From the IMG/VR virus record IMGVR_UViG_3300031757_000019, positions 1 through 24,337 of that record: a stretch of DNA of 24,337 nt; one strand, given 5' to 3'. The notes beneath the pieces are model-generated. The model saw only the letters and a program-made list of their open reading frames with translations, did not search any database and was not told where the DNA came from. The DNA comes from a virus. Position numbers and translations under genes: made by a program. Shown in pieces: positions 5,651 to 8,782 of this stretch. Each line of letters begins with the position of its first letter. Positions within the stretch are counted from its first letter, which is position 1.

Positions 5651-5679
5651 ACGCTTTTACCGCCTTTGCAGGCGAGCCA

Positions 5680-5922
5680 CTAGGACGGTTTGCTCGACTG
5701 GGTTCGACCAGTCCTTCGGTTCTGCCAAACTTGACGCGTGATGTCTCGCACGCTCTCGGTTCGGCGCCCCGAAGTCCTCCGCCGAAGGGCGGCGCTCGCG
5801 ACACGACGACTTCTACCCGCACGTCGTTTGAACCTATCAGCCCAACTAATTTGGATCCAAAAATGCTGCAATGACATGAGTGTCATAAGCAGTCTAAACC
5901 CACCGAATATACCTAACTTCAT
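5680..5922 (-). CDS. Small basic hypothetical protein (uncertain)
   Basis: An 80-aa frame starting at ATG 5922 with a strong AGGAG ribosome binding site 6 nt upstream. The first 25 residues are hydrophobic (MKLGIFGGFRLLMTLMSLQ) and could be a membrane segment; the rest is very Arg/Ser-rich (RRAGRSRRVASAALRRRTSGRR). The frame could also begin at an upstream GTG near 5967 overlapping the ParB-like stop, but the ribosome binding site favours 5922. The ribosome binding site itself is inside an inverted repeat (5925-5958). The Arg-rich part covers a GC-rich patch with a stable hairpin at 5779-5792, so the segment could instead be a structured non-coding leader for the connector gene. Confidence 0.45.
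   Translation of the reverse strand: MKLGIFGGFRLLMTLMSLQHFWIQISWADRFKRRAGRSRRVASAALRRRTSGRRTESVRDITRQVWQNRRTGRTQSSKPS
5779..5792. repeat. GC-rich 5-bp hairpin, CCGCC/GGCGG
   Basis: CCGCC-GAAG-GGCGG on the plus strand (CCGCC-CTTC-GGCGG on the minus strand) forms a tight stem with a 4-nt loop in the most GC-rich patch of the region. It lies inside the uncertain small basic ORF. No U-tract follows. It may simply reflect Arg/Ala codons, or be an RNA structure upstream of the connector gene. Confidence 0.3.
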
Positions 5923-5924
5923 AG

Positions 5925-5958
5925 AGACTCCTACAGGATTCGAATCTATGTAGAGTCT
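5925..5958. repeat. 34-nt imperfect inverted repeat around TTCGAA core
   Basis: Outer arms AGACTC (5925-5930) and GAGTCT (5953-5958) are exactly complementary. The centre GATTCGAATC is a perfect 10-bp palindrome, and TACA/TGTA pair between them with one base offset. On the minus-strand transcript it would fold into a 6 + 4 bp hairpin that contains the AGGAG ribosome binding site of the small gene starting at 5922. It sits just after the second ParB-like gene, so it could be a translational switch, an operator, or a binding site for one of the ParB-like proteins. Confidence 0.55.
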
Positions 5959-5966
5959 ACCATTCA

Positions 5967-6533
5967 CTACCTGTCGGCGTTGGGCGGCTTCTCTATGGCG
6001 ACCTTTTGGCGAATAGCCATGTCGCTATCAGTTGTTCCCGGCGGAGCCTCTATCGGAACCCACGCCCTAGAGTAATTGTGATTAGCGACCTTCCGATGTT
6101 TGATAATTGAACCGTCCAACATCAATTCAAGTTCATCGAATTTCATACTGAACAAATCGTTATATTGGGCATCGGTCATACGCAGAACACGCCTGAGCGT
6201 TTTAACCAACCTGGACAACTTGTGAGCGACCACCGCTCCACGGCCTCGATTTATTTGGATATGAAGAATCATCGCTTCTGTGTCGTCACAGTCAACCCAC
6301 ACAATGGGAACTTTGCCCTCGCAGGCTTCGTTGAGGGGCTTGTTTCCCAGAATCAGACGCAGGCGTTGTCCACCGTCAATAACGTTAGACCCTTCCCGCT
6401 GAACTACCAGTGGTGCAAGGATTCCATGCTCGGAAATAGATCTCGCCAACACCAGTAGATCTGGCCTCAAGATGTAAGTGGCTCCCCATTCGGGAATATT
6501 CAGCGACTCCCCCTCAACTAGTTCAATCTCCAT
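5967..6533 (-). CDS. ParB/Srx-fold protein, second copy (IbrB-like)
   Basis: A 188-aa protein with an N-terminal ParB/sulfiredoxin-like domain (about residues 8-95): ILRPDLLVLARSISEHGILAPLVV corresponds to the helix-strand part, and VIDGGQRLRLILG carries the G-x-[QH]-R motif (GGQR at 54-57). A C-terminal helical part (about 100-170) is less conserved. Its start overlaps the end of the PP-loop gene by 11 nt, with AAGGAG 7 nt upstream, so the two are coupled. Pairing of a ParB-like protein with a PAPS-reductase-like enzyme recalls E. coli IbrA/IbrB. It is far too small to be a plasmid partition ParB and lacks an obvious HTH; a role in DNA or nucleotide chemistry is possible but unproven. Confidence 0.75.
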   Translation of the reverse strand: MEIELVEGESLNIPEWGATYILRPDLLVLARSISEHGILAPLVVQREGSNVIDGGQRLRLILGNKPLNEACEGKVPIVWVDCDDTEAMILHIQINRGRGAVVAHKLSRLVKTLRRVLRMTDAQYNDLFSMKFDELELMLDGSIIKHRKVANHNYSRAWVPIEAPPGTTDSDMAIRQKVAIEKPPNADR

Positions 6534-7653
6534 CCGCCATCTCCTTCATTCGTAATGTGTGGGCACGCGTTTTGGGTCCCACGGGGGTAACCGACCTGGC
6601 GCTACCAATTTCCTTCAGTAGTAAATGGCGCAACAGGTTTTCGAATGGGTATGAGTATGGGTCGCGAGCGTGTTTGCGGCGAAACTCTGCGGCGATTGCC
6701 ATTGCCCGTTTAGTGTTTCCGGGTCCAATCATGTAGGTATTAATGAAATCTGAGACACCTTCCCACCCCTCCTCTGAGTAGAGGGCGATGAATTTCTCTA
6801 CATCAACGTCTTTCCACCATCGACGTTGGGCATCTATCTGAGGGAAGCACTCGCAGAGGCGGTCAAAGAACTCCGGCTCGGTCGCTACAAGGTCACCAAT
6901 TCGCCGGATGGCGACTGCATGCAATGGAACCCCAACCCTTGTATTGGAACCAGTGGCTACAGCGCGGTCGTAGTACTTACAGTAGGGGGCGTTGTGTTCT
7001 TCTGAGATGAACCTGAAAACATCATTTACATTCCAGTCGTAGATGATCTTGGCCAACTTGAGGGGAACACTCTTACTCAACTTGTAAGGGTTGTTGATGT
7101 AGTTCTCATGCAACTTTTGGACAACCGACCTGTAACGAATCATGGACTCGGAGGCTCGGACTCCAGTGATGAAAGCAACCTGCCCGACCTTGCCTTGCAT
7201 GGTGTATTCATCCATGGATTTGGTCAACGGTTGGGAATGATCTAAACCAAAATGAAATGCAGTAATAGCCCATTCGGGTATGGGGCGCACCAATTTCCCT
7301 TCTTTTGCGCGCTCTTCATCCCAAATGATTAGAGACTGTCGTCTGCCTAGCACCCAAATTTCAGCACCGACCGGCAAGCAATACCACTCCATGTCCACCC
7401 AGTCAAACTGACGGACCTCATTGACATACTCCTCAACAAGCGGGCTGACCATCTCTTCATCACGGAAGATGACTTTTACTGGACCCAGACCACGCTCTTC
7501 GTGAATCTCTTTGGCCAGATACAGAGCCGCTGTGCTGTCTTTGCCCCCAGAGAATTGAACGCAAACCGTATCGAAAGTGTCATAAACGTGTCGGATTCTC
7601 TGTCTAGCCGCCTCGACACAAGATATGTCGAGAAACATTCTTTGGCGGCTCAT
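6523..7653 (-). CDS. PAPS-reductase-like PP-loop protein (IbrA/DUF3440-type)
   Basis: A 376-aa protein of the phosphoadenosine phosphosulfate reductase superfamily. The PP-loop SGGKDST, which binds ATP or adenylyl phosphate, is at residues 35-41; FRDEEMVSP (63-71) and ITGVRASESMIRYRS (162-176) match the later conserved motifs (G-x-R-A-x-E-S). The C-terminal half resembles the IbrA-type extension, with a YCKYYD cysteine and a YMIGPGN segment. The family includes assimilatory reductases, the DndC protein of DNA phosphorothioation and IbrA. No cysteine desulfurase or dndD/E-like gene is visible, so a full Dnd system is not supported. The start overlaps the upstream ParB-like stop by 4 nt (ATGA), and a second ParB-like gene overlaps its end, forming a three-gene cassette. 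Confidence 0.88.
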   Translation of the reverse strand: MSRQRMFLDISCVEAARQRIRHVYDTFDTVCVQFSGGKDSTAALYLAKEIHEERGLGPVKVIFRDEEMVSPLVEEYVNEVRQFDWVDMEWYCLPVGAEIWVLGRRQSLIIWDEERAKEGKLVRPIPEWAITAFHFGLDHSQPLTKSMDEYTMQGKVGQVAFITGVRASESMIRYRSVVQKLHENYINNPYKLSKSVPLKLAKIIYDWNVNDVFRFISEEHNAPYCKYYDRAVATGSNTRVGVPLHAVAIRRIGDLVATEPEFFDRLCECFPQIDAQRRWWKDVDVEKFIALYSEEGWEGVSDFINTYMIGPGNTKRAMAIAAEFRRKHARDPYSYPFENLLRHLLLKEIGSARSVTPVGPKTRAHTLRMKEMADGD

Positions 7654-8438
7654 ACTTCTGAATGGGAGTCTATAAACGAAAGAATCTTCTGTCCCGTGGT
7701 GGCTCCGTCATAACCCGGGTTGTTTCGAAGCCATCGGACAAAGTCGTACCACCGCTTCTGCTGGTCGGGATCATCGAAAACAATTGTGTATTGGACTACC
7801 GCACGAGGGGCAGCACCTGGAACGAGAGCGGTACTCCCCTGTACTGCGACATCAGCATGATCCATCGAGTCGTCAGCGACGATTTGTCGTTCTCCATCCT
7901 CGCCCTCTTGAACCATTCCAGCCAACATCTCTGCTGCGGCCCCAACCACTTCCCCTATTGCCGGAGTAATAAAACCAATTCCGTCGCTGTCGTTGGATTT
8001 GGTTTTTTGAGATTGCTCTTCGTAATATGCAATCTCAAAATCGTCCCATTGGAGACTCTCCATTAAATCGTTGTATTCATCAACAATTTCGATAATCATT
8101 TCCGAAGCCTGAGCCGGGTCCGTATACCCCAACTCCATCGTCCGGTTGTCTGCGAGAGCAAACGCAACCGCTCGCTTATCGTCGGCATCAATCGAAACCG
8201 CAGCGATATGAGTCCACCCAAGCCGCCTAACCGCTTCAACCTGATGGTTCCCGGCGATGACAGTGGAAGTGCCATCCTGGTTTGGCCTAATCACAACCGG
8301 TTTCACTTGACCAAATTCTTCATATGAAGCCATGATGGCTTCGACATTTCCCACACGCGGGTTATGTTCCAGCGGTGTCAACTCATCCAAAGGAACAAGC
8401 ATGTCGCCCAACGCTTCATTCGCATTATGTTCCATCAT
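7650..8438 (-). CDS. ParB/Srx-fold protein, first copy
   Basis: A 262-aa protein with a clear ParB-like nuclease domain at about residues 14-105: LVPLDELTPLEHNPR (NPR at 26-28), EFGQVKPVVIRP, IAGNHQVEAVRRLGW (the GNHx motif at 63-66) and FALADNRTMELG (DNR at 97-99). After a linker, the C-terminal 60 residues (VQYTIVFDDPDQQKRWYDFV, then WLRNNPG and TTGQKILSFI) form a second small domain that I recognise as recurring at the end of phage ParB-like proteins. The ATG overlaps the upstream stop (ATGATGG). It precedes and overlaps the PP-loop gene, so it is the first member of the ParB/PP-loop/ParB cassette. Partition is unlikely; DNA cleavage or modification, or regulation, are alternatives. Confidence 0.85.
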   Translation of the reverse strand: MMEHNANEALGDMLVPLDELTPLEHNPRVGNVEAIMASYEEFGQVKPVVIRPNQDGTSTVIAGNHQVEAVRRLGWTHIAAVSIDADDKRAVAFALADNRTMELGYTDPAQASEMIIEIVDEYNDLMESLQWDDFEIAYYEEQSQKTKSNDSDGIGFITPAIGEVVGAAAEMLAGMVQEGEDGERQIVADDSMDHADVAVQGSTALVPGAAPRAVVQYTIVFDDPDQQKRWYDFVRWLRNNPGYDGATTGQKILSFIDSHSEV

Positions 8439-8782
8439 GGACCCACTTGGAATCTGACATTTGCATTGAGCGTTCGCATGGCATCAATCGAGGTCCGCAG
8501 TGACAGCAGTTTTTCTCGCTTGGCCTTGACGAGAGCCTCGGCACACTTGAAGTCAAACTGGGTGTCTGCCAACTTGTAGTCGGCCCAAGACTCTCGCTCT
8601 TTAATCGACCCCTTGGCCGACAGGTATTCCTTGGCCCAACTGGCTTTGTAGCGGGACTCCTTTTTCGCGGCGTCTTCTGCTAATTGCTCAAACGCTTCTG
8701 TCTCGCCTTCTAATGATTCGATCAGGTACATGAGTTGATGCTCAATGTCGACCTGACTAATCGGCTGTGATCGGTTCACCAT
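8435..8782 (-). CDS. Hypothetical coiled-coil protein
   Basis: A 115-aa, almost entirely helical and highly charged protein (long runs rich in Glu, Lys and Ala, e.g. EQLAEDAAKKESRYKASWAK), probably a coiled coil. The ATG lies 26 nt inside the resolvase gene and its stop overlaps the ParB-like start, so it is embedded in a coupled chain of genes. Similar short helical proteins are often found beside RuvC-like or annealing proteins in phages, but I do not recognise a family and cannot assign a function. Confidence 0.65.
   Translation of the reverse strand: MVNRSQPISQVDIEHQLMYLIESLEGETEAFEQLAEDAAKKESRYKASWAKEYLSAKGSIKERESWADYKLADTQFDFKCAEALVKAKREKLLSLRTSIDAMRTLNANVRFQVGP

Follow-up and report, generated by a model that had tools for sequence, protein, structure and literature searches.

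The marine phage window analysed here is a stretch of 24,337 bases (IMG/VR record IMGVR_UViG_3300031757_000019) with genes for sheath, tube, portal and terminase. Its minus strand encodes a trio of overlapping genes, named B, P and A in order of transcription, that probably forms a phage DNA-modification cassette. P encodes a PP-loop enzyme, and B and A encode ParB/Srx-fold proteins. We favour DNA modification because ParBs of the B type that occur without P adjoin modification enzymes, because P and A share the genomic slot of a DpdA cassette, and because the trio carries, in many phages, a fourth gene that is exchangeable between a methyltransferase and a GNAT. The genes and motifs are listed below, with overlaps taken from the coordinates of the open reading frames (ORFs).

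7650-8438, minus: gene B, ParB/Srx-fold protein of 262 amino acids (aa), phrog_723, with a conserved C-terminal tail
8241-8252, minus: GNHQ of B, residues 63-66, at the position of the ParB phosphate motif; G63 is invariant in alignments of B-type ParBs
7653-7799, minus: C-terminal tail of B, residues 214-262, motif [IV]xYx[IL]VFDDxxQQxxWxxFxxWL
7650-7653, minus: overlap of the B stop and the P start, ATGA, 4 nucleotides (nt)
6523-7653, minus: gene P, PP-loop ATP pyrophosphatase with a PAPS-reductase fold, IbrA family, 376 aa, phrog_2302
7534-7551, minus: PP-loop SGGKDS of P, residues 35-40; S, G37, K, D and S are invariant in 17 diverse homologues
6523-6533, minus: overlap of P and A, 11 nt
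5967-6533, minus: gene A, IbrB-type ParB/Srx-fold protein, 188 aa, phrog_2159
6363-6377, minus: DGGQR of A, residues 53-57, at the DGFHR position; D, G and R are invariant in 17 homologues

Conservation of the three-gene order

All three ORFs start with ATG, and their coordinates and overlaps of 4 and 11 nt are as the initial annotation had given them. Its claim that the three are co-translated is plausible for P, which is without a clear Shine-Dalgarno sequence and fits coupling through ATGA, and is put in doubt for A by an AAGGAG site of its own.

From 80 close IMG/VR relatives, and from further scans in which P of Rhizobium phage L338C, of Kovu or of a Bacillus phage served as the query, we collected 123 loci with P, IbrA-type loci not counted. 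Among loci with enough flanking sequence, B lies upstream of P in 78/79 and A downstream in 103/104, and the reverse order was never met. This order holds down to about 30% identity. In cultured phages, profiles built from the close marine set alone recovered the upstream B and the downstream A at about 30-38% identity. The contigs are redundant, with P falling into 43 clusters at 90%, 11 at 60% and 3 at 50% identity; complete trios are present in all 11 and all 3 of the latter two sets. Marine phages and phages of Mycobacterium, Arthrobacter, Bacillus and Rhizobium carry the cassette in the same order; cultured examples include Kovu, Phlyer, prophi79-1, Bacillus phage 031MP002 and Rhizobium phage L338C. 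Chance association is excluded, since the order is conserved in other phages. A second ParB-like protein, described as unusual in the initial annotation, is thus the rule for this P clade. Independent occurrence of the three genes, which was named there as counting against a joint function, was not found within the clade except at one locus (L094, 7663-8814) of 79-104, where P has neither A nor B nearby and which is the sole exception to both order counts. Among distant relatives the genes do part: IbrA-type loci mostly lack a conserved B (5/6), and B-like ParBs occur without P, mostly beside other DNA-modification enzymes. The P at L094 is 64% identical to that of the window and lies on a contig labelled Oxalobacteraceae; it may be a solitary gene, or the contig may be degraded or chimeric.

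B-type ParBs beside DNA-modification enzymes

A search with the B-type ParB of Phlyer matched 334 phage records. We read 14 neighbourhoods without P, spread down the ranked list, with Hedgerow picked as a phage of the Rosebush type. The B protein of Phlyer and the Hedgerow ParB both match phrog_723 (3e-76 and 2.5e-65). A recognised DNA-modification family adjoins or is fused to the ParB in 11/14 of these contexts. Four of the 11 are weaker: the matches in Stinger, Bolt007 and Vincenzo are weak or below the Pfam cut-off, and Nadezda is assigned by annotation and PHROG only. The contexts are as follows; the last three are not among the 11.

Hedgerow: ParB next to DpdA-QueC-QueD-QueE-FolE
Nadezda: ParB next to DpdA-QueD-QueE-FolE
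Stinger: ParB, TET/JBP-like protein (4e-6), TerS, TerL
Bolt007: ParB with TET/JBP-like protein (2e-5) and TAGT (1e-4)
NTR1: ParB with TAGT (7e-36)
Phonegingi: ParB with Mom (5e-46)
Zartrosa: ParB with Mom (4e-61)
Elener and Twister6: N6/N4 methylase fused to ParB
D_HF5_3: DNA methylase (N6/N4) adjacent to ParB
Vincenzo gp1 (L143:1-2275): ParB of 479 aa whose C-terminal part weakly matches a DNA methylase; next to terminase, with a pyridoxal phosphate-dependent enzyme after gp1
Mariokart, a Gordonia phage (L137:609-2446): GNAT-like protein and formyltransferase between ParB and terminase
UBSmoodge: DUF4417 fusion to ParB
Abba: nothing recognised beside ParB

The GNAT-like protein and formyltransferase of Mariokart are candidates for a further modification chemistry. 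In Stinger, gp2 (L136:776-1744) is annotated as a queuine tRNA-ribosyltransferase and PHROGs agrees, while its Pfam match is Tet_JBP (4e-6) with no TGT family; the label is possibly a misannotation in Coopervirus phages.

The strongest comparison is between Phlyer and Hedgerow, both Bclasvirinae. The Phlyer order is ParB, two small genes, P, A, terminase, RuvC and portal; that of Hedgerow is ParB, the DpdA/preQ0 genes, terminase, RuvC and portal. The P-A pair therefore fills the slot between the phrog_723 ParB and terminase that is taken by DpdA and four preQ0 genes in the Rosebush-type mycobacteriophages of the same subfamily, where the ParB is without the P-linked tail. Hedgerow and Rosebush are one species by taxonomy, and about 28% of G in Rosebush DNA has been measured as dPreQ0 (PMC6884629). 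The ParB (gp1) in that position was earlier proposed as a DpdB homologue (PMC6392294). Profiles found neither Mom nor DpdA in 18 trio phage records, with control phages positive, as expected if the cassettes are alternatives. The same ParB type adjoins the Mom or TAGT genes of the actinophages Phonegingi, Zartrosa and NTR1, and the TET/TAGT genes of Bolt007 and Stinger on weaker matches; these enzymes differ from P-A, and the small GNAT of the trio loci does not match the Pfam Mom model.

This GNAT (about 122-143 aa, 15 loci) is one of two forms of the fourth gene, which is found in many trio phages other than the marine ones and lies either behind A or inserted between P and A. The other is a small class-I methyltransferase (phrog_11826, 10 loci), and the two never occur together at one trio locus. 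The GNAT of Kovu is exchanged for the methyltransferase in Laroye, LiSara and Waltz, whose P proteins are about 83-87% identical to that of Kovu. Arthrobacter phage Wheelbite likewise combines the trio with the methyltransferase, and Phlyer has the trio without a fourth gene. The trio-linked methyltransferase is present in 18/50,697 phage records, all of them trio phages, in three genera. Inspected by eye, its alignment shows no DPPY motif of the kind found in amino DNA methylases. A methyl- or acyl-transferase in the last place suggests that P may leave a nucleophilic group, for example an amine or a thiol.

The PP-loop enzyme and its two ParB partners

The P protein matches the Pfam family PAPS_reduct (PF01507, E=5e-11, passing the cut-off) and phrog_2302 (E=1e-76). 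Its ATP motif is intact: the alignment of homologues shows an arginine loop, GxRxxES, kept beside the SGGKDS-type PP-loop. The cysteines of phosphoadenosine phosphosulfate (PAPS) reductase and of DndC are missing. Cys225 is present in 23/24 clade members and replaced by N or P in six IbrA-type relatives; every other cysteine is found in no more than about two thirds of sequences, and no conserved cysteine follows position 225 across 17-24 homologues. With a single widely conserved cysteine, P can have neither the tail cysteine of CysH nor a three-cysteine cluster like that of DndC. A cysteine desulfurase (Aminotran_5) was found in 0/20 trio phage records, with 14/14 control genomes positive. 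The lack of the expected cysteines and of a phage desulfurase makes a sulfur reading weak. Among the functions offered in the initial annotation, DNA modification is backed by comparative genomics, and its possible sulfur basis finds no support.

The AlphaFold model of P is good (predicted local distance difference test score, pLDDT, 84; predicted template modelling score, pTM, 0.80). A fold search of the PDB placed human FAD synthase (8ron/8rom) and PAPS reductases at the top, with TilS and other PP-loop enzymes lower. The sequence profile also ranked FAD synthase first, with a YCxxYDR segment common to both. FAD synthase, an FMN adenylyltransferase of the PAPS-reductase fold, is therefore the closest solved relative of P by profile and fold. 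It is a eukaryotic flavin enzyme with about 17% identity to P, and a flavin substrate for P is not expected. From the profile and the model, we infer that P is an adenylyl-transferring enzyme and not a reductase.

The A protein falls under the Pfam cut-off for ParB_N (E=0.0019), is a clear member of phrog_2159 (E=1.2e-20) and ends in a YSxAW tail. P shares its PHROG with the annotated IbrA of Streptococcus phage CHPC1148, and A shares its own with the annotated IbrB of that phage. This confirms the earlier description of P as IbrA-type and makes P-A the IbrA-IbrB pair, with B as an extra ParB. As in the IbrAB island of E. coli ECOR-9 and its phage homologues, the two genes are adjacent. IbrAB acts as an activator of prophage eib genes (Sandt et al. 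2002, as cited in PMC10434257). The Streptococcus IbrA contains DUF3440 (E=6e-52), whereas the window P shows just PF01507 at E<=0.1. A conserved upstream B is absent from 5/6 IbrA-type loci examined, unlike in the trio clade; in these six loci A (IbrB) lies on one side of P or the other, except in Hendrix, where it is at the other end of the genome. In Faecalibacterium phage Pioen, also IbrA-type, a weaker B-like ParB precedes P. By sequence, the pair P-A thus falls in the IbrA/IbrB family; B joins it as a constant extra, and DUF3440 is not detectable in the window.

The B protein passes the curated cut-off of ParB_N (PF02195, E=2.8e-7) and matches phrog_723 (E=1.7e-35). Its tail motif is present in 65/70 distinct B proteins of trio loci. 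The five others are three divergent versions and two extra ParBs away from P. The motif is absent from 14 ParBs of other contexts (0/14) and from 1149 other ORFs (0/1149). Because the tail is found only in ParBs paired with P, it is likely a docking element for P or A. The N-terminal part of the B model (pLDDT 75, pTM 0.52) matches Noc/ParB, sulfiredoxin and serine kinase structures, and the ParB fold is known to bind CTP, ATP or GTP (PMC12704722). A role as the ParB of a ParABS partition system was rejected: B scores 38.9 bits against the TIGR00180 cut-off of 58.45 and A is not listed. No ParA is annotated next to the trio in Kovu, Phlyer, prophi79-1 and the Bacillus and Rhizobium phages, as judged from annotation, with no profile search.

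Proposed mechanism and alternatives

We think that the trio may work like the ParB-linked modification cassettes. B would act as a nucleoside triphosphate-binding clamp or adaptor whose tail recruits P and A to phage DNA. P would use ATP for the adenylation of an acceptor, most likely some group of a DNA base such as a carbonyl, with release of pyrophosphate, and a small nucleophile would displace AMP from the adenylated group; adenylation by P is our best guess at the chemistry. A, the obligate partner of P, may gate P or position it on DNA, and the methyltransferase or GNAT, where present, could cap the product. New phage DNA would receive the mark ahead of packaging, probably as protection from host restriction, and in several lineages the trio has a late or terminase-proximal position that fits such timing. 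More tentatively, one ParB adaptor type may serve a modular platform with swappable chemistries (DpdA/preQ0, Mom, TET/TAGT, methylase), to which P-A would add an undescribed one, with a DNA base adenylated by the PP-loop enzyme and capped by a methyl- or acyl-transferase.

Several points weigh against DNA modification. The support for it in trio phages is comparative throughout. The ParB contexts read are few (14), were taken down a ranked list and come mostly from actinophages, and the TET/JBP matches and one of the two TAGT matches are below the Pfam cut-off. In the marine group, neither form of the fourth gene was found next to the trio, nor elsewhere in the 15 phage records searched for it. 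Terminase is a frequent neighbour of the trio, which fits a packaging role too, and the only activity known from publications for an IbrA/IbrB pair is activation of prophage eib genes. That activity and the PHROGs shared with IbrA and IbrB suggest that the trio could be a transcription co-activator of phage or host genes that leaves DNA unmodified. We consider this unlikely, as it leaves unexplained the invariant ATP site, the replacement of DpdA or Mom cassettes by P-A beside the same ParB type and the swappable methyltransferase or GNAT. Co-activation and modification are also not exclusive, since a DNA mark could alter transcription.

A packaging accessory, in which the ParBs bind or nick DNA near cos/pac and aid terminase under ATP-driven control by P, has a low probability in our assessment. 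The window, like mycobacterial and Arthrobacter phages, carries the trio within its packaging region or close by, and ParB domains can act as nicking nucleases (PMC5512222). However, the annotated neighbours in Rhizobium phage L338C include ribonucleotide reductase and, over 5 kb, no terminase; Phonegingi and Zartrosa have same-type ParBs together with Mom near replication genes; and PP-loop enzymes, GNATs and methyltransferases have no known packaging role.

Improbable as well is Dnd-like phosphorothioation, with P as the DndC analogue, A and B as DndB analogues and sulfur from a host desulfurase. DndB, which also belongs to the ParB superfamily, goes together with a PP-loop enzyme (PMC10853773), and P is weakly and locally similar to the DndC (E 1.9e-7) and BrxP (2e-6) models. 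However, P scores 23.8 against a cut-off of 290 in the DndC equivalog model, and C225 alone cannot make up the three-cysteine Fe-S set. The missing Aminotran_5 also speaks against this reading, though a host enzyme could substitute. DndE was found in 0/20 trio phage records, in a search without a positive control signal. A known defence system was considered and rejected, as PADLOC matches were weak and limited to DndC, BrxP and methyltransferase domains.

We attach a similarly small probability to a role in counter-defence or superinfection exclusion in which the target would be nucleotides or proteins and not DNA, for example through transfer of AMP to a host protein. P is closest to adenylyl transferases, and PP-loop proteins of the QueC family conjugate nucleobases to proteins in type IV CBASS (PMC12424860). 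The stable link to ParB DNA-binding folds and the slot common with DNA-modification cassettes nevertheless point to DNA. A PAPS reductase for sulfate assimilation, as the PF01507 match and the usual annotation would have it, is very unlikely: P lacks the catalytic cysteine, with no CysH ECGLH-type motif and no conserved C-terminal cysteine, the NCBIfam CysH and PAPS-reductase models list no match for the window P and give 37.4 against 165 for that of Kovu, and the fixed linkage to two ParBs would be unexplained, so that its status as a sulfur auxiliary metabolic gene was rejected.

Our literature search, which left some key older papers uncovered, found no paper that describes the trio or gives its function. 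Genes of this type are annotated as "PAPS reductase" (sulfur metabolism) and "partition" proteins in many phage genomes. The trio most likely marks phage DNA by a chemistry not yet measured, and the synteny with proven cassettes makes DNA modification directly testable on the collection phages Phlyer, Kovu and Laroye. If true, it would provide one more DNA-modification chemistry, assign to the ParB fold a general function as loader of modification enzymes and correct a common misannotation of viral "auxiliary sulfur metabolism". It would also bear on the function of IbrA/IbrB, a question standing since 2002.

A few minor observations concern the window and its relatives. No tRNA genes or Rfam families were found in the window. 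The matching contigs from metagenome-assembled genomes are labelled conflictingly (Phycisphaerae, Oxalobacteraceae, Gammaproteobacteria), and no host is claimed. A 115-aa gene (8435-8782, minus, phrog_1389) overlaps B by 4 nt; it is upstream of B in 64 marine-group loci and was not seen beside the trio in the cultured phages read. ThyX (11 loci) and/or dCMP deaminase (10 loci) lie inside or beside marine trios, some between B and P (loci including L030, L031, L035, L049, L063 and L079), showing that nucleotide-metabolism genes repeatedly land there. On the other side of the trio, a short, unannotated Arg/Lys-rich ORF (5651-5966, minus) lies between A and the head-tail adaptor in nearly all marine relatives, with about 50-95 codons, roughly 20-38% R+K and the pattern GRxRRxxRS...RxRDIIR.

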